A stretch of 52,038 nucleotides of DNA from a candidate division NC10 bacterium CSP1-5 (GTDB lineage: Bacteria > Methylomirabilota > Methylomirabilia > Methylomirabilales > CSP1-5). The stretch lies in assembly GCA_001443495.1 (NCBI GenBank), contig LDXR01000016.1, forward strand, positions 19,593 to 71,630, in the 5' to 3' direction. The translations under genes and the position numbers were made by a program. Shown here piece after piece: positions 23,764 to 48,799 of the stretch; positions within the stretch are counted from its first letter, which is position 1; the number at the start of each line of letters is the position of its first letter. The notes below the pieces were generated by a model. The model made no database searches, was not told where the DNA came from, and saw nothing but the letters and a program-made list of their open reading frames with translations.

Positions 23764-25152
23764 TCATAGGCTCCAGTAGAGGATGCCGGTATTCTCGACG
23801 GCGTCCCGAGGCAGCACCCCTTTCACATCCACCAGCACCCTGGTCCCATCTTTCCGCAAGAGCCCAAGATACGTTTCGAGTTCTTTTTGCCGAAACACTT
23901 GGTGGGAAACGGCGAGGACGACGGCGTCATAGTTGGGTTTGTTGGGTCCATCAGGTTTATAGGGTTCGAACGGGTCAGAGACGGGTCGCAGGCCCAGTTT
24001 GTGTAGCTCTGCCGCACCGACCAAGGGGTCGTACACCGCCACCTCGACCCCGTAGGTTTCCAGTTCGCGCACCAGTTCCACGATTCGGGTGTTGCGGACG
24101 TCGCGCACGTCCTCTTTGAAGGTGGCACCCAATATCAGGACCTTCGCGCCTTGGACGGCCTTTCCGGCCTTGATGAGCAGCTTGATGGTTTCCTGGGCTA
24201 CATACACCCCCATGAAGTCGTTAATGCGCCGTCCGGCCAGAATAACTTCCGGGTGGTACCCGATTTCCTGCGCCTTGTGCGTGAGATAATACGGATCCAC
24301 CGGGATGCAGTGGCCCCCCACCAGCCCGGGCCCGAAGGGCAAGAAGTTCCACTTGGTCTGGGCCGTTTTGAGAACTTCCTGCGTATCGACCCCCAGGCGG
24401 TGAAAGAGCATGGCCAGCTCGTTCATCAGGGCGATATTTAGGTCCCGTTGGATGTTTTCAATGACCTTGGCTGCTTCCGCCGTCTTGATATCCTGGGCCC
24501 TATACACCCCCGCTTTTACGACGAGGCCGTAGACCCCCGCCATCGTCTCAGCGGTCTCACCATCCTGGGCAGCAACCACCTTGACTATCGTCTCCAGCGT
24601 GTGCTCCGGATCGCCAGGATTGATCCGTTCAGGGGAGTAGCCCACACCAAAGTCCTTGCCGGCTTTGAGCCCTGATTCTTGCTCGAGGATCGGGATGCAT
24701 ACCTCCTCCGTGCAGCCGGGATAGACCGTGGACTCGTACACGATGATTGGGTGTTGGGTGTTTGGTGTTGGGTGTTGGGTCGTCGGTCGTCGGATTTTGA
24801 GGATGTGGGCGACGAGGCGGCTGGCCTCGAGCAGGTGCGACAGGTCCGGCCTCTTGGCCGGGTCTACCGGGGTAGGGACGGTCACAATGAGGAAATCGGC
24901 TTTTTCGAGGGCTGCAGGATCATTGGCAAGCATGAGCTGCGGGACTTTGAGGGCTTCGGGCGGGATCTCTCCGGTGCGATCGTGTCCCGATTCAAGCTCC
25001 CGAATGCGATCAGGATTGATGTCGAAGCCAACAGTCGGGAGGACCCGGCCGAAAGCGGTGGCCAGCGACAGCCCCACGTAGCCCAGTCCGATCACCCCTA
25101 TGCATTCAACGGGAAGCGGGTTCATTGGGTTTGTTGGGTTTGTCGGGTTCAT
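23764..25152 (-). CDS. Nucleotide-sugar dehydrogenase (UDP-HexNAc/UDP-glucose dehydrogenase family, TviB/WbpO-like) with repeat-derived insertions
   Basis: A 462-residue NAD-dependent 6-dehydrogenase. CIGVIGLGYVGLSLATAFG binds NAD, VYESTVYPGCTEE and FGPGLVGGHCIPVDPYYL hold the catalytic cysteine region, and ILGATFKEDVRDVRNT begins the C-terminal UDP-binding domain. It resembles TviB/WbpO, which make UDP-GalNAc-uronate; UDP-glucuronate is possible. Three stretches come from DNA repeats: the N-terminal MNPTNPTNPMNP, RRPTTQHPTPNTQHP just before IVYESTVYPG, and EPYKPDGPNKPN before YDAVVLAV. All are in frame and in surface-loop positions, so the enzyme may still work. The ATG at 25150-25152 overlaps the epimerase stop by four bases. 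Confidence 0.9.
   Translation of the reverse strand: MNPTNPTNPMNPLPVECIGVIGLGYVGLSLATAFGRVLPTVGFDINPDRIRELESGHDRTGEIPPEALKVPQLMLANDPAALEKADFLIVTVPTPVDPAKRPDLSHLLEASRLVAHILKIRRPTTQHPTPNTQHPIIVYESTVYPGCTEEVCIPILEQESGLKAGKDFGVGYSPERINPGDPEHTLETIVKVVAAQDGETAETMAGVYGLVVKAGVYRAQDIKTAEAAKVIENIQRDLNIALMNELAMLFHRLGVDTQEVLKTAQTKWNFLPFGPGLVGGHCIPVDPYYLTHKAQEIGYHPEVILAGRRINDFMGVYVAQETIKLLIKAGKAVQGAKVLILGATFKEDVRDVRNTRIVELVRELETYGVEVAVYDPLVGAAELHKLGLRPVSDPFEPYKPDGPNKPNYDAVVLAVSHQVFRQKELETYLGLLRKDGTRVLVDVKGVLPRDAVENTGILYWSL
23931..23971. repeat. In-frame repeat in the nucleotide-sugar dehydrogenase gene (TTGGGTTTG family)
   Basis: Units such as gttgggtttg, ttgggtccat and gggttcga follow one another and encode EPYKPDGPNKPN on the minus strand. 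The same family recurs at 24745-24793 as ttgggtgttgg and at 25118-25152 and 26130-26184. Confidence 0.65.
24745..24793. repeat. In-frame repeat in the nucleotide-sugar dehydrogenase gene (GGTGTTGGGT family)
   Basis: A run of gattgggtg, ttgggtgttt, ggtgttgggt and gtcggtcgtcgg. On the minus strand it encodes RRPTTQHPTPNTQHP immediately upstream of the conserved VYESTVYPG. The same sequence type reappears at 45050-45090 outside genes. Confidence 0.75.
25118..25152. repeat. Repeat at the dehydrogenase N-terminus (TGGGTTTGT family)
   Basis: Units ttcattgggt, ttgttgggtt and tgtcgggttc give the N-terminal peptide MNPTNPTNPMNP of the dehydrogenase. The start codon itself lies in a repeat unit. Confidence 0.7.
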
Positions 25153-26168
25153 TCGGTGCCGAGCTCGACGGCGCTGGCCCATTGCCGGTTTTCCAGGTAC
25201 CACTTGACCGTGTGCTCGAGCCCCTCTTCCCAGGTCGTCTGCGGCGACCATCCCAAGAGCCGTCGCGCCTTCGAGAGATCGGCCCAGGTGGCGGGAACGT
25301 CCGCCGGATGACCGGGGCGAGACTGGATCACCGCCTCGCGCCCCAAAAGGCGCTCGATCGTCTTGATGATCTGCCGCAGCTTGACGGGACGGTCGCTACC
25401 CAGGTTGACGATCTCAAAGCCGATCGACTGGAGCCCCAGGAGCGTCCCGCGCGCGATATCATCCACATAGGTAAAGTCGCGCTCCTGCGAGCCATCGCCG
25501 TAGAGGATCAACGGCTCCCCCTCGGCGATCCACTTGATGAACCGAAAGATGCTCATGTCGGGCCGACCGGCGGGGCCGTACACGGTGAAGTAGCGGAAGA
25601 TCGTCACGTCAAGCCCGTAGAGATGGTGATACGTGTAACAGAGGGCCTCCGCCCCCTTCTTCGACGCCGTATAGGGAGAGAGCGGCCGATCGGTGGGGGC
25701 ATCCTCACGAAACGGCCGTTCGCCCTCGCCATAGATGCTTGATGTGGACGCCAGGATAAACTTCCTGATGCCGGAGTTCCGGCAGCACTCCAGCAGATTG
25801 AGGGTGCCGATGACATTGGTCTGAAAATAGGGCCAGGGGTTCTTGACACTCGGCCGCACCCCGGCACGGGCCGCCAGGTTTATGACAGCAGTGATTGGTG
25901 ATTGGTGGCTGGTGGCCAATAGCTGTTGAAGGGCCTCGCGGTCGGTGATATCGAGCCGGTGAAAGGAAAGATTCGGGTGGCCGTCGAGCTGGGCGAGTCG
26001 CCACTCTTTGAGCCGCAGGTCGTACGCGTCGTTCAGGTTGTCCACGCCGATCACGCGGTGCCCCTCGCGAAGCAGGCACTCGCTCACCTTCCAGCCGATG
26101 AATCCGGCGCAGCCAGTGACTAAGATGTTCATTGGGTTCATGGGGTTGATTGGGTTTGTGGGGTGCAT
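25149..26168 (-). CDS. NAD-dependent epimerase, UDP-glucuronate 4-epimerase-like
   Basis: An SDR of up to 339 residues. The core starts MNILVTGCAGFIGWKVSE, then VINLAARAGVRPSVKNP, LASTSSIYGEG, YTASKKGAE (YxxxK) and FRYFTVYGPAGRPDM, closest to UDP-glucuronate/GalA 4-epimerases that work with a UDP-sugar dehydrogenase such as its downstream neighbour. The first 12 residues, MHPTNPINPMNP, come from DNA repeats; an ATG at 26130-26132 starts directly at MNILVTG. An ATSHQSPIT segment before AVINLAARAG is also repeat-like. Neither start has a clear ribosome binding site. It overlaps the dehydrogenase by four bases. Confidence 0.85.
   Translation of the reverse strand: MHPTNPINPMNPMNILVTGCAGFIGWKVSECLLREGHRVIGVDNLNDAYDLRLKEWRLAQLDGHPNLSFHRLDITDREALQQLLATSHQSPITAVINLAARAGVRPSVKNPWPYFQTNVIGTLNLLECCRNSGIRKFILASTSSIYGEGERPFREDAPTDRPLSPYTASKKGAEALCYTYHHLYGLDVTIFRYFTVYGPAGRPDMSIFRFIKWIAEGEPLILYGDGSQERDFTYVDDIARGTLLGLQSIGFEIVNLGSDRPVKLRQIIKTIERLLGREAVIQSRPGHPADVPATWADLSKARRLLGWSPQTTWEEGLEHTVKWYLENRQWASAVELGTE
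25891..25920. repeat. In-frame repeat in the epimerase gene (GTGATTGGT family)
   Basis: Sequence gtgattggtg, attggtggct, ggtggccaat encodes LATSHQSPIT on the minus strand, just before the conserved LAARAGV. The same family dominates at 26681-26714, 27171-27271 and 30048-30205. Confidence 0.65.
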
Positions 26169-26184
26169 TTTGGGTGTTGGGTTT
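26130..26184. repeat. Repeat at the epimerase 5' end and in the preceding gap
   Basis: Units ttgggttcat, ggggttgatt, gggtttgtgg and ttgggtgttgg fill the start of the epimerase and the 15-base gap before it. They encode MHPTNPINPMNP and leave no recognisable ribosome binding site. Confidence 0.7.
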
Positions 26185-26738
26185 TACCAGTCGAGGGGAA
26201 CGGCACTGTCGGCATCAATCTCGACAGCAACCGACTGCTGCAGGATGTCGATGGAAACCACCAGACGGTGCTTGCCTTTCCTCCTCACCAGGATTCCGCT
26301 CAACCCCCCCAGCGGGCCCCGGACCACGCGAACCCATCGACCCTCGGTCAGATACGGGTATGGATCGCAGGGGAGCTTGGTGAGACAGATCTCGCGGACG
26401 GCTTCAATCTGGTCATCAGGGATGGGGGCCGGGGTGCCTTGGAAGCCCACCATACAGACCACCCCATCCGTGCTCACCACCTGCCGCTTCTGCACGAGGG
26501 AGGTGTGCACAAAGACGTAGCCGGGGAACAGGGGGAGTTGGACCAGTTTGCGTCGGTCCTTCCAGCGGGAGAGGACCTCGCGGACGGGCAGAAACGCCTC
26601 CATCTCGCGCTTGGCCAGTTGCTCGGCGACCGCCTTCTCGTGGCGGGGGCGCGTGTAGAGGGCGTACCACCGCAGCACTGAGAGTGATTGGTGACTGGTG
26701 ATTAGTGATTGGGGAGTCGCGGACGACTGTTGAGTCAT
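26184..26738 (-). CDS. NusG-family transcription antiterminator (UpxY/RfaH-like)
   Basis: A NusG paralogue of about 184 residues. WYALYTRPRHEKAVAEQL is the NGN-domain signature, LPLFPGYVFVH follows, and the C-terminal part RVVRGPLGGLSGILVRRK is the KOW motif. Specialised NusG proteins at the head of capsule/EPS loci load onto RNA polymerase and suppress termination, allowing long operons such as this one to be transcribed. The ATG at 26736-26738 has a GGAAG upstream; an ATG at 26771 adds 11 residues. The first 20 residues (TPQSLITSHQSL) come from a repeat tract. It is followed 15 bases later by the epimerase. Confidence 0.88.
   Translation of the reverse strand: MTQQSSATPQSLITSHQSLSVLRWYALYTRPRHEKAVAEQLAKREMEAFLPVREVLSRWKDRRKLVQLPLFPGYVFVHTSLVQKRQVVSTDGVVCMVGFQGTPAPIPDDQIEAVREICLTKLPCDPYPYLTEGRWVRVVRGPLGGLSGILVRRKGKHRLVVSIDILQQSVAVEIDADSAVPLDW
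26681..26714. repeat. In-frame repeat near the NusG-like N-terminus (GTGATTGGTG family)
   Basis: Units gagtgattgg, tgactggtga and ttagtgattgg encode LITSHQSLSV ahead of the NGN domain. The family is the same as in the neighbouring gaps. Confidence 0.65.
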
Positions 26739-26763
26739 GGATACTTCCACACGACGACGCTCT

Positions 26764-27159
26764 CTAGGCATGATCTTTGGCGTTCCGCCTCGAAGCGATG
26801 GACCGAACGAGGTTCGTCAGCATTCTTCCGACGGACTGGCAAGCATCGGCGAGCTTCTCGTGATGGCTGGCCGGAATTAAGCCCTCTTCACGAGCAAAAA
26901 GGAGAAGGTACCGCGTTTCGGCCAGAGAACGGCGTGCCACGTTCAGAGACTGTGTGAGTTCCTTGGAGTGCATACTTGCGGAGCCCTCCGCTATATTCGC
27001 AGGCACCGACAATGCAGCACGTCGTAGCTGGTTCCCGAGGTCGTACACGTAAGAGCGGGGAAACCGGTGCGTGACGCTGAAGATTTCGTGGGCCAATTGG
27101 TTAGCCGCCTTCCAGACCTCAAGGTCCTCAAAGCTTCTCACTTTCCCCAGGCTACTCAC
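26764..27159 (-). CDS. Four-helix-bundle protein (23S rRNA intervening-sequence protein family)
   Basis: A 131-residue all-helical protein: SFEDLEVWKAANQLAHEI at the N-terminus, LGNQLRRAALSVPANIAEGS in the centre and a final amphipathic helix. This is the S23/IVP four-helix-bundle family, first seen inside intervening sequences of 23S rRNA genes and now known near many genes; its biochemical role is unsettled. It lies between the winged-helix regulator and the NusG-like gene, flanked by short repeats, with the downstream ATG (26771) overlapping its stop. Start ATG at 27157-27159. Family assignment firm, function unknown. Confidence 0.85.
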   Translation of the reverse strand: MSSLGKVRSFEDLEVWKAANQLAHEIFSVTHRFPRSYVYDLGNQLRRAALSVPANIAEGSASMHSKELTQSLNVARRSLAETRYLLLFAREEGLIPASHHEKLADACQSVGRMLTNLVRSIASRRNAKDHA

Positions 27160-27170
27160 CCCTGACCATC

Positions 27171-27271
27171 CTTAACACCTAGCACTAACCACTAATCACC
27201 TGTCACCTTTTACCTTCGTTCACTACCCCACCAATCACCAGCCACTATTCACCAATCACCTTTCACTGGCC
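27171..27271. repeat. Intergenic array of ACCAATCACC-type repeats
   Basis: Units such as aacacctagc, actaaccact, aatcacctgt, ccaatcacca, gccactattc and accaatcacc fill the 5' region of the four-helix-bundle gene. There is no ORF and no spacer pattern, so it is not a CRISPR array. Confidence 0.7.
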
Positions 27272-27354
27272 CTGGGCAGGCTTGCGCCCTCTCAGTTACA
27301 GCCCACAATCGCTGTAACCATCGAGGAATAAAAGCTTAAAATGCATTTGCGCTT

Positions 27355-27432
27355 GGAGGCTGGAATGCTCGGATGCCTGGATGTCTTAGCCTGCTAGCCT
27401 TCCAGCCTGCTAGCGTTCTAGCCTGCTCGGCT
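27355..27432. repeat. Inverted short repeats at the 3' end of the regulator gene (GCTGGAATGCT/AGCCTGCTAGC family)
   Basis: Forward units aggctggaatgctcgg are followed by inverted units ctagccttccagcctgctagcg, so the RNA can fold into a hairpin. The regulator's last codons and its stop at 27418-27420 lie within the array. It may act as a transcription terminator or RNA 3' stabiliser. Confidence 0.6.
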
Positions 27433-28050
27433 GCCCGCCCCGTCGGTCTCCGATTCTCGGGCAGGGGTATCGCGGAGAAAAACAATTCTGTCTTCGGGGA
27501 CCTTCAGGGAGCGCAATCGATCCAGGATGTCTTCGGTGCCATTCCGAACAGCCAGGACGACCCAGTCGTAGCTCAACTCCGGCACCTCAGGAAGTGTCCG
27601 CACCTTGTGCCCGAGGAACGTGCTCCCCGCCTTCTCATCATCGACGACGTGCTCAAGGCTGAGATCGACTTCCCAGAGGACGAGGGCCGCGATCTCGGCA
27701 ACCTCACCCGACCCAACCAGCAGGACCCGCCGCCCACCCGAGAGGCTCAGCGGCGAGAGGCGCTGCCGAAATGTCTCGCGTAATTGTGTGTAATAACTCA
27801 GAGAGTACTCCACATATTGGTAGGCCAACCGAGCCTTCTCGGCAATTCCCCGGGGAGTGAGGAGATACTTCAGGCGGGAGCGCTTGACGTTGACGATCTT
27901 GACATACCCCTTTCTGGCCAGTCGCTTGATATAGAGGTTGGTCAGGCCCAACGCCATCCCGAGCTTCTTGGCCAGCGCGCGTTGGGTAACGCCCTGCCCC
28001 TTAGCGATTTCGGTCAGCAGTTCCAGTTCGCGTTTCGCCTGGGGATCCAT
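27418..28050 (-). CDS. Winged-helix transcriptional regulator with C-terminal Rossmann-like domain
   Basis: A 210-residue protein. Residues 1-75 form a winged helix (VTQRALAKKLGMALGLTNLYIKRL, then KRSRLKYLLTPRG). The rest has GGRRVLLVGSGEVAEIAALVL, a nucleotide-binding GxGxxx motif, with later segments like the CoA/sugar-acyltransferase (PglD-type) N-terminal domain. Proteins with this layout commonly precede polysaccharide loci and may sense a sugar nucleotide or redox cofactor. The promoter upstream overlaps an inverted repeat that could be its own operator. Its C-terminus lies in a repeat array. Confidence 0.8.
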   Translation of the reverse strand: MDPQAKRELELLTEIAKGQGVTQRALAKKLGMALGLTNLYIKRLARKGYVKIVNVKRSRLKYLLTPRGIAEKARLAYQYVEYSLSYYTQLRETFRQRLSPLSLSGGRRVLLVGSGEVAEIAALVLWEVDLSLEHVVDDEKAGSTFLGHKVRTLPEVPELSYDWVVLAVRNGTEDILDRLRSLKVPEDRIVFLRDTPARESETDGAGSRAG

Positions 28051-30036: not shown

Positions 30037-30047
30037 GACTCACCCTT

Positions 30048-30205
30048 TATTGGTGGATGGTGGCCAGTGATGAGTGGTTGGTGAATGGTGAAATGCGCAA
30101 AACATTCGTCACCAAGCGCGAGCCACTAGCCATTTTTTCACCTTTGACCGGTCACTTTTCACCAATCACTCGTCTCTGGTCACCAATCACTACTCACCAG
30201 TCACG
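30048..30205. repeat. Inverted arrays of short repeats between kdsA and msbA
   Basis: The left part reads as GTGA/GGTGAATGG-type units (30048-30091) and the right part as their complement, TCACC/CCAATCAC (30107-30205), so RNA could fold into a long imperfect hairpin. The kdsA stop codon (30201-30203) is inside a repeat unit. Confidence 0.75.
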
Positions 30206-31042
30206 CCCCGCGGAGCGCGGCGGAGATACGGAGAAGCGACTGCAGGAGCACCTCGAGTTCTCCGAGCGGCCACATGGTAGCTCCATCCGATGGGGCACGA
30301 TCCGGATCCGGGTGGACCTCCATGAAGATGGCATCACAACCCGCCGCCACTGCCGCGCGCGCCAGATGAGGGACATACTCCCTCAGACCCCCCGAGGCCA
30401 CACCGGTCCCCCCGGGAAGCTGAAGGCTATGGGTGGCATCAAAGACCACTGGGTAGCCGATGGCCCGCATCATCGGCAAGGCCCGCATATCCACGACGAG
30501 GTTGTTGTATCCAAAGCTCGTCCCACGTTCGGTGATCAACAGTCGGTGATTGCCGGTGGAGACCACCTTTTCCACCACCCGAGGAACCTCACCCGGTGAG
30601 AGGAACTGCCCCTTTTTCACGTTGACGGCTAGGCCACTCTGGCCCGCAGCCAGGAGGAGGTCGGTCTGTCGGCAGAGGAAGGCCGGGATCTGCAGCGCGT
30701 CCACGACCTCCGCTGCAAGCGTAACCTGGGACACGTCATGCACATCGGTGAGGACCGGCAGCCCGGTCTTTTCCCGCACGCGGCGGAGGAATTCGAGCCC
30801 CCGCTTAATCCCCGGCCCCCGGAAAGAGGCGAGCGAGGTTCGGTTCGCCTTGTCGTAGGACGACTTGAGAATGACGGGGATCCCCACCCGGCCGCAGATT
30901 TCCTGGAGTCGTTCTGCTACTCCAAGCAGGTGGTCCTCCCCCTCGATCACACACGGTCCGGCAATGAGGGCCAGCGGATGGCCGGCGCCCACGGTCACAG
31001 ACCCCACGCTGACTGACCGGTGCGGAGGCCCCTTCGGGTGGC

Positions 31043-31046: not shown

Positions 31047-34307
<3,261 letters not shown>

Positions 34308-34311
34308 GATG

Positions 34312-35319
34312 CTACTCCTCCTTCTGTGCCAAGGCTCGCTGGAGCTCTGCCACACTCACCGTTGCGGTTCCTCGCTTCCCCACCACCACGCTGGCGGCGT
34401 GGTTGGCGATGTGGGCCGCCTCCACCATCGTCGCCTTGGAACAGAGGGCAAGGGCCATGGCCCCGACCACCGTGTCCCCTGCCCCGGTGACATCGTACAC
34501 CTCTTTCGCCACCGCCGGGATATGGCTGACACGACCGTCCGCCTCGAACAGGGACATCCCCTTCTCCCCGCGGGTGACGAGCACCGCCTGAACCCTCAAG
34601 GTATCGACGAGATGTCGCCCCGCCTCCACGACCTCTGCTTCACTCCGAATGGGCCGTCCCCAGGCGGTCGCCGCTTCCCAGTGGTTGGGCGTGAGCACGC
34701 TGACATTGCGATACATGTCAAAGTGATTGACCTTGGGGTCCACCACGATCACCACCCCACGAGCGTGGGCCAGCGGAAGGATCTCCTGGAGGAGCCGACC
34801 GCCGATCACTCCCTTTCCGTAATCGGAAATGACGAGGGCATCGACAGAGGCCAGCCGATCCCGGATCAGCTCCTCAATCCTCCCCCGGATCTCATCACCC
34901 AGATCATCCGTGGACTCCCGGTCAAATCGTACCACGTGCTGGGGCCCGGCGACAACCCGGGTCTTGCGCGTGGTCTTCCGCGACCGATCCACGACCATAC
35001 CATCCGACTTCACCCCGATCTGCTCGACCTCGTGGATCAAGCGCTCTGCCATGGCATCGCCACCCACGACGCCGACCAGATCCGCCTGGCCACCGAGGGC
35101 GCGCACGTTGGCCACCACATTGGCGGCGCCCCCCAGACGGATATACTCGTGCTCCACCTCGACGATCGGGACCGGGGCCTCGGGCGAAATCCGTGAGACG
35201 CCTCCCCAGATATATTCGTCCACCATGATGTCCCCGACTACTAGGATCTTCCTTCGGGGAAACCGGTCCAACAGCTCATGAAATGCGAAGGGGGGGTGGT
35301 GTGGCTCGGAAATCCTCAC
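34312..35319 (-). CDS. hldA: D-glycero-beta-D-manno-heptose-7-phosphate kinase (HldE/RfaE N-terminal domain only)
   Basis: A 335-residue ribokinase-family sugar kinase: KILVVGDIMVDEYIWG, RLGGAANVVANVRALGG and VTGAGDTVVGAMALA with the catalytic aspartate in GAGDT. It matches the kinase domain of HldE/RfaE, which phosphorylates heptose-7-phosphate at C-1. Unlike bifunctional HldE there is no C-terminal cytidylyl/adenylyltransferase domain, so it corresponds to HldA and the partner HldC must be elsewhere. Start GTG at 35317-35319, overlapping the oxidoreductase stop as GTGA. It lies in the Kdo/heptose operon. Confidence 0.88.
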   Translation of the reverse strand: MRISEPHHPPFAFHELLDRFPRRKILVVGDIMVDEYIWGGVSRISPEAPVPIVEVEHEYIRLGGAANVVANVRALGGQADLVGVVGGDAMAERLIHEVEQIGVKSDGMVVDRSRKTTRKTRVVAGPQHVVRFDRESTDDLGDEIRGRIEELIRDRLASVDALVISDYGKGVIGGRLLQEILPLAHARGVVIVVDPKVNHFDMYRNVSVLTPNHWEAATAWGRPIRSEAEVVEAGRHLVDTLRVQAVLVTRGEKGMSLFEADGRVSHIPAVAKEVYDVTGAGDTVVGAMALALCSKATMVEAAHIANHAASVVVGKRGTATVSVAELQRALAQKEE

Positions 35320-44930: not shown

Positions 44931-44978
44931 TTCACAGACCTCTGACCGGAGACATCAGAAGGAGACATGAGACCGGGA

Positions 44979-45118
44979 ACTGGTGAGTAGTGATGGATGA
45001 TTGATGGCTGGTGATTGATGAAGCAATGCTGGGACGCTCGGAGGCCTTGTCTAACACCCAAAACCCAACACCCAACACCCGAATCCAATGAACCCTATAA
45101 ACCCTATGAACTGTGAAC
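44979..45118. repeat. Mosaic of four short-repeat families between moaE and the KaiC-like gene
   Basis: Consecutive units: tggtgagtag tgatggatga ttgatggctg (GTGATTG type), gcaatgctgg gacgctcgga (GCTGGNNCGCT type), aacacccaaa acccaacacc (AACCCAACAC type) and aaccctataa accctatgaa (AACCCTAT type). All families seen elsewhere in the window appear here side by side. No ORF crosses it. Confidence 0.8.
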
Positions 45119-48478: not shown

Positions 48479-48721
48479 ATGACACCGACGACTGCCTATG
48501 TCCTCATCGAGGCCGCATCCGACAAGGCTAAGAATGCACTGAAGGCCATCAGCAAGACCCCCGGTGTGAAGATGGCCCACGCCGTAACCGGCCCCTACGA
48601 CATCATCGCCTTTGTCGAGGCAGCCGACGTCGACGCCTTGGGTCGGGTGGTCCTGTCGAAGATCAGAACAATCTCCGGTGTGACCAAGACCTTGACCTGC
48701 GTTGCCATCGAAGTGCGATAA
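48479..48721 (+). CDS. Stand-alone Lrp/AsnC-type ligand-binding (RAM) domain protein
   Basis: An 80-residue alpha/beta protein. TAYVLIEAASDKAKNAL, GVKMAHAVTGPYDIIAFVEA and LTCVAIEV are the core of the AsnC/Lrp effector-binding RAM fold, without the DNA-binding helix-turn-helix. Such proteins bind amino acids or act as partners of Lrp regulators. Start ATG at 48479 with AGGAGGGG upstream; it follows rpiB by four bases and ends at a hairpin of short repeats. Precise role unknown. Confidence 0.85.
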   Translation: MTPTTAYVLIEAASDKAKNALKAISKTPGVKMAHAVTGPYDIIAFVEAADVDALGRVVLSKIRTISGVTKTLTCVAIEVR

Positions 48722-48725
48722 GAGG

Positions 48726-48799
48726 GCTAGAACGCTGGGAGGCTGGGATGCTAGGATGCACCAGCCTACGAGCATTCTAGCGTCCTAGCTTACTAGCCT
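48726..48799. terminator. Imperfect long hairpin (GCTGGAACGCT family) between convergent genes, likely bidirectional terminator
   Basis: 48726-48746 and 48761-48781 form a 21-base stem with three mismatches and a 14-base loop; further inverted units and a TTTTTT run follow near 48799. It lies between the plus-strand RAM protein and minus-strand pepA, so it could end transcription from both sides. The sequence belongs to the same repeat family as 27355-27432. Confidence 0.6.

Follow-up and report, generated by a model that had tools for sequence, protein, structure and literature searches.

The window (the whole stretch of DNA analysed, 52,038 nucleotides) is G000:C16:19593-71630, where G000 is the source genome (2.77 Mb, 99.7% complete) of what we infer to be an NC10-type (Methylomirabilota) bacterium, uncultured and methanotroph-like. 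On the minus strand at 23764..25152, profile matches, reading frame and orthologues identified a TviB/WbpO-like nucleotide-sugar dehydrogenase, which carries three segments derived from repeats. The protein scored 347.6 bits against TIGR03026 (curated cut-off 189.8), which places it in this NDP-sugar dehydrogenase subfamily, and 439.9 bits against the NCBIfam TviB model, below the equivalog cut-off of 592. Judged by these profiles, it is a TviB-like nucleotide-sugar dehydrogenase, assigned above the level of the TviB equivalog, i.e., of the exact substrate. The catalytic motif GGHCIP (GGHCIPVDP) was intact. In the AlphaFold2 model (mean pLDDT 83), the fold matched solved sugar-nucleotide dehydrogenases, and the inserts lay in a disordered N-terminus and two loops. 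Searching the genome contigs with the dehydrogenase yielded two matches only, both distant. Full-length sister-family orthologues (L005 and L006) were 66% identical to it, and an orthologue from the same genus (G006), the sequence of which is cut off before residue 178, was 78% identical.

The three segments put forward in the preliminary description are real and lay within a few bases of where it had placed them, as established with TRF, probe scoring and, for sites 2 and 3, homologue gaps. The reading frame was open through all three, with no stops, as had been claimed. Their derivation from repeats was likewise borne out: array scores exceeded those of shuffles, and the unit families matched those elsewhere in the genome. 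The sites comprise two unit classes (9, 7, and 9 nt for sites 1, 2, and 3), not one. For the (GGGTTTGTT)x4 probe, the null came from shuffling the whole window in codon blocks 60 times; the best score was 24/36.

Site 1 (25118..25153, minus strand) lies at the N-terminus and consists of AACCCAACA-type 9-nt units, encoding the peptide MNPTNPTNPMNP. TRF reported period 9, and positions 25118-25149 matched the probe consensus at 31/36 positions. In the model, the segment was a disordered tail (pLDDT about 42; < 50 at residues 1–10). It is the least certain of the inserts because an alternative start, ATG at 25125, which would give the N-terminus MNPLPVECIGVIG.., would leave most of the array untranslated. 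The start at 25152 is supported by an ATGA overlap with the upstream epimerase. From the sequence, the array may be partly or largely upstream of the true start, or may just abut it. The sister-family orthologues L005 and L006 had an N-terminal 9-nt array of their own, related to site 1 (MNAIDPMDSIDLLIDPIDS).

Site 2 (24747..24793, minus strand) is a 7-nt array in which CCGACGA units are followed in register by CCCAACA units, encoding RRPTTQHPTPNTQHP. TRF gave period 7, 4.9 copies, and 92% matches (sense strand CCGACGACCGACGACCCAACACCCAACACCAAACACCCAACACCCAA). The model placed it in a loop between helix 105–120 and strand 136–140, with pLDDT < 50 at 124–131. In an alignment of 23 dehydrogenase sequences, the insert was unique to this protein (0/21 other homologues covering the site).

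Site 3 (23926..23970, minus strand) is a degenerate 9-nt array encoding EPYKPDGPNKPN. Its best window, 23935-23970, scored 26/36 against the same probe consensus, and the G006 orthologue carried a longer 9-nt array there (HQPNEPYKPNKRNKPNKLDQPQ). In the model, it lay between helix 380–385 and strand 410–413 at moderate confidence (pLDDT about 70–75). The inserts of sites 2 and 3 were missing from L005 and L006; the sister-family sequence reads ..AHLRPGAIVVYESTVYPG and ..DPFHAGHRYDAIVLAV at these positions. The earlier statement that family members have short loops at the inserts was supported. The homologue alignment proposed earlier as a check was run, and no distant homologue with the inserts was found among the 23 sequences, many rows of which end before site 3.

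Arrays were also found in or at the edges of other intact frames: an NAD-dependent epimerase/dehydratase, a NusG-like gene, KdsB, PyrK, CarA, HPPK, a Mur ligase, two histidine kinases, and a MATE transporter. The dehydrogenase had been presented as a special case, which does not stand, since several enzymes of the same genome carry arrays and PyrK also has three; the finding is real but ordinary within its genome. The epimerase, the dehydrogenase's neighbour (25149..26168, minus strand), has an in-frame loop array of 7-nt units (AATCACC family; 25887..25916, minus strand; peptide TSHQSPIT) and a 9-nt array at its start (MHPTNPINPMNPMN; 26125..26169, minus strand). The NusG-like gene (26184..26771, minus strand), identified solely from its resemblance to MLQWYALYTRARHEKAV, the neighbour in L005, has an N-terminal 7-nt array at 26684-26715 (SSATPQSLITSHQSLS). 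KdsB (CMP-KDO synthetase; 33474..34355, minus strand; Pfam CTP_transf_3, 178 bits) carries two in-frame 7-nt arrays in one loop, at 33736-33767 and 33785-33812. Three in-frame 7-nt arrays were present in PyrK, the DHODB electron-transfer subunit (L065:13700-14620, minus strand; orthologues L177-L195). All three PyrK array loops differed strongly from those of G005, and sister-family PyrK loops contained other short repeats (KVQSSKFQ, TPHPTPHT, and PFTKGGHGG types). In CarA (L065:17894-19279, minus strand), a 7-nt array occupied exactly the linker between two Pfam domains (LDLFSLQSSALSPRPRF).

To count arrays genome-wide, 852 kb of the own genome (about 31% of the total) were sampled as stretches, with codon-block shuffles as the null; array calls and gene calls were our own simple ones. 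Period-7 arrays numbered 57 (0.4 expected), period-8 arrays 13 (0.6 expected), and period-9 arrays 24 (4.8 expected), the last partly reflecting ordinary coding periodicity. The period-7 and period-8 excess over shuffles in the 852 kb excludes chance for this class of arrays. Stretches from relatives were picked for containing arrays, so that densities are given for the own genome only, where selection for arrays also applied to the window and to one stretch at C14: 7- and 8-nt arrays occurred at 48 per 100 kb in intergenic DNA vs 3.8 in genes, a difference of about 13 times. This agrees with the preliminary description, in which the repeat families of the dehydrogenase lie between genes elsewhere and are also able to enter genes in frame.

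The 179 heptamer arrays from the genus samples fell into 25 unit clusters, a few of them dominant, and the commonest families were AACCATG, ACCGATG, ACTGCTG, AACTCTG, AATCACC, and AACACCC. Octamer units in these samples were mostly of the GCTAG type and nonamers mostly of the AAACCCAAC type. Genus-specific motif counts agreed with the array clustering, and by such counts the genus motifs were absent outside the order. A sister-family genome (G026) also had a period-7 excess, with other units (5 vs 0.0 in 140 kb). The Rokubacteria-like relative G035 had no excess of period 7 (0 vs 0.6) or period 8 (0 vs 0.4). An ancient trait of the whole class was therefore rejected, given G035 and the motifs missing outside the order.

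TGA was present on one strand in six of the nine commonest heptamer families, and the main octamer contains CTAG, i.e., TAG on both strands. With TGA in the heptamers and CTAG in the main octamer, no reading frame stays open through such arrays in at least one direction; a heptamer array with TGA on one strand has this effect in one orientation as soon as three units are present. Within genes, arrays of the TGA-containing families were mostly in the opposite (non-TGA) orientation. Open frames for internal arrays were more numerous in sense than in antisense in 11 cases, fewer in 1, and equal in 8. In a single case, the left arm of the G005 KdsB arrays, the TGA orientation was used, and the would-be in-frame TGA unit reads CGA. 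For some of the in-gene arrays, the gene start may have been miscalled; in these genomes, array segments can lead start prediction and alignment astray.

Neighbouring arrays were mostly arranged as inverted pairs. When pairs within 120 bp were compared, 61/78 matched better inverted and 15/78 better direct. Forty of the 47 clear inverted pairs were folded, and they folded much better than shuffled sequences (median z of −4.2); such pairs would form hairpins. In the 47 pairs, a G-rich arm lay 5′ and a C-rich arm 3′ in 33 vs 9 with the opposite arrangement, whichever strand was read. Intergenic examples in the window (unstranded features) were an inverted pair of 7-nt arrays at 30051..30204; 7-nt arrays at 27173-27266 with an 8-nt inverted array at 27351-27437 (27173..27437); 7-nt arrays that run directly into a 9-nt array, their families being those seen in the dehydrogenase (44962..45111); and an 8-nt inverted pair of GCTAGGAN units followed by TTTTTT (48721..48797). 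The last resembles an intrinsic terminator and is an exception among the pairs. T4 or A4 stood beside the arms in 2/47 inverted pairs (background 7%). A general role as intrinsic terminators was rejected, as the pairs showed no preference for T-runs, gene ends or gene orientation.

Turnover was assessed in two genome pairs, G000/G005 (about 92% identical) and G006/G003 (about 95% identical). Genic arrays had 31 and 15 indels per kb, respectively, and the remaining coding DNA had 0.85 and 0.31; intergenic arrays had 63 and 41 vs 5.4 and 8.5 in other intergenic DNA. Alignment gaps counted modulo 3 carried no information, since they offset one another. Exact one-unit 9-nt differences between close relatives were seen in the HPPK-gene array and in one intergenic array.

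The KdsB loop arrays differed in every one of the six species compared. The loop contained GTGCAGC-type and CTCAGTC units in G000, GAGGACT and CTCAGTC in G005, CCGAAAT and GGACCTC in G002, CCCTCAG in G001, GGTTCAG in G003, and almost nothing in G006. Its length was equal in G000 and G005 although the left arms differ. In the kdsB of G004 (L201:539-1099), the frame ended just past the array loop and the downstream sequence was unrelated, which corresponds to a rearrangement or misassembly at the array. In the epimerase, the loop held CACCAAT units in G000 vs an AAATTCG-type array in G004, and the start carried a 9-nt array in G000 but a 7-nt array (CACCCAA type) in G004. The intergenic hairpin at 30041-30210 (7-nt units in G000) corresponded to L166 241-400 in the orthologous gap of G005, made of 9-nt units, with flanks 92% identical.

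Each genome pair offered few orthologous sites (8 to 14); at the eight comparable array sites of G000 and G005, the family was kept in four, different in three, and the site was empty in one. What is surprising in these sequence comparisons is the change of repeat family at sites that themselves persist. No description of such site-persistent family switching was found for this group in the open-access literature searched, which is not proof of absence. An assembly artefact, named earlier as a possible refutation, was rejected as unlikely, as arrays recurred at the same sites in independently assembled relatives (site 3; KdsB). The comparison of related genomes also proposed there returned one-unit 9-nt changes, whole arrays that appear or vanish, and replacement by a different unit family. 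The choice it had left between insertion and expansion was partly answered: neither simple picture suffices.

How 7–9-nt bacterial repeats are born and spread is a long-open question. The dehydrogenase inserts probably belong to a genome-wide population of degenerate 7-, 8-, and 9-nt arrays, of which those inside genes are a minority. In the explanation we consider likely, such arrays would arise again and again, be replaced, and change by slippage of units, with selection for an open frame acting as the filter. Arrays would repeatedly be born or exchanged via recombination or error-prone repair synthesis, and would afterwards change by slippage. Those in flexible loops, linkers, and termini would survive only if in frame and in a stop-free orientation. 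Judged from intact frames and domains in several enzymes, genes would tolerate arrays, as suggested earlier; the array peptides would then be tolerated passengers and not gains of function. The route of birth or swap is what we infer from the comparisons, in which no enzyme, intermediate, or active polymorphism for it was seen. Some apparent switches could be old arrays diverged beyond recognition, and some could stem from whole-locus transfer from another strain, although the flanks are 92–95% identical.

It is unlikely that the arrays are classic variable-number tandem repeats, each born once and altered only by slippage expansion, contraction, and mutation. Such repeats would account for array indel rates several-fold (intergenic) to tens-fold (genic) above those of comparable DNA, for the exact one-unit differences, and for the greater length of site 3 in G006 than in G000 with the unit class unchanged. 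Slippage, however, cannot produce the switch from 7-nt to 9-nt units in the inverted pair that occupies one gap in both G000 and its 92% relative, and both the occurrence of the same unit families at many loci and the different families within one KdsB loop are left unexplained. An active process of the genus by which entire repeat cassettes are swapped, the two hairpin arms as one, at fixed genic and intergenic sites also appears improbable; if it existed, short enzyme loops would be continually rewritten with the rest of the gene unchanged.

More doubtful still is an origin from mobile miniature elements (of the MITE, REP or RPE kind) that a transposase inserted and that are now read in frame. 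In their hairpins, their genome-wide dispersal, and their in-frame presence in unrelated genes, the arrays are similar to Rickettsia palindromic elements (PMC10969869), but no fixed-length conserved element with terminal inverted repeats was found among them; they consist only of 7–9 nt units in varying number, with arm and spacer lengths that vary. Clean empty sites, at which a target-site duplication would show, were few. Nor does the presence of the REP-associated Y1 transposase track the arrays: G000 had one match, G001 none though arrays are present, and G013 ten with few arrays. RAYT-driven REP spread appears unlikely, as in these genomes transposase copy number does not follow the arrays. 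Least credible are inserts that are functional adaptations (linkers or interaction loops) under selection, for while the same loops keep bearing inserts across the genus and the KdsB loops of G000 and G005 are equally long despite different left arms, the peptide at one site is wholly different between close relatives, G006 KdsB carries almost none, the segments are predicted to be disordered or loops, and their unit families match intergenic DNA.

Under the favoured explanation of recurrent birth and replacement, short degenerate repeats would enter and turn over in housekeeping enzymes (KdsB, PyrK, CarA, and HPPK) of an uncultured genus. Unrelated repeats at the same position in close relatives make the birth and spread of such repeats testable by strain comparison.

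Several known systems share some of these features. Heptanucleotide long simple sequence repeats are a class described by Mrazek et al. 2007, here taken from the summary in PMC4679880, which also covers the TAACTGA arrays of Beggiatoaceae. As far as that summary goes, these repeats resemble the present arrays in having 7-nt tandem units that are genome-wide and mainly intergenic, and, within coding sequence, in favouring multiples of three and the orientation free of stops; here too, 7-nt units occurred in tandem more often than by chance (57 vs 0.4 in 852 kb). Unlike the repeats as summarised there, the present units are degenerate, belong to many families with 8- and 9-nt classes, mostly form inverted pairs, and switch family at a site; one near-perfect unit with copy-number change as the main variation was not found in these arrays. 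The STRR heptamers of heterocystous cyanobacteria, which also lie within the gene for RNase P RNA (Vioque 1997, by its title as cited in PMC2858038), are likewise a tandem genome-wide family within a functional gene. They are likened by description, not by unit sequence, and unlike them the present arrays occur in NC10 bacteria and in protein loops. Rickettsia palindromic elements also place repeat DNA in frame in unrelated metabolic genes, where it is tolerated, but they are conserved elements of about 150 bp (PMC10969869), whereas the arrays here are built of 7–9 nt units with no fixed element. The tandem repeats of archaeal Borgs (PMC9879509) are, like the present arrays, fast-evolving, both genic and intergenic, and add disordered peptide segments. 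In the Borgs, the units are perfect, almost every one is unique, and within genes their length is a multiple of three (PMC9879509); this combination was not found in the present arrays, the units of which are imperfect, common to several loci, and 7 nt long also within genes.
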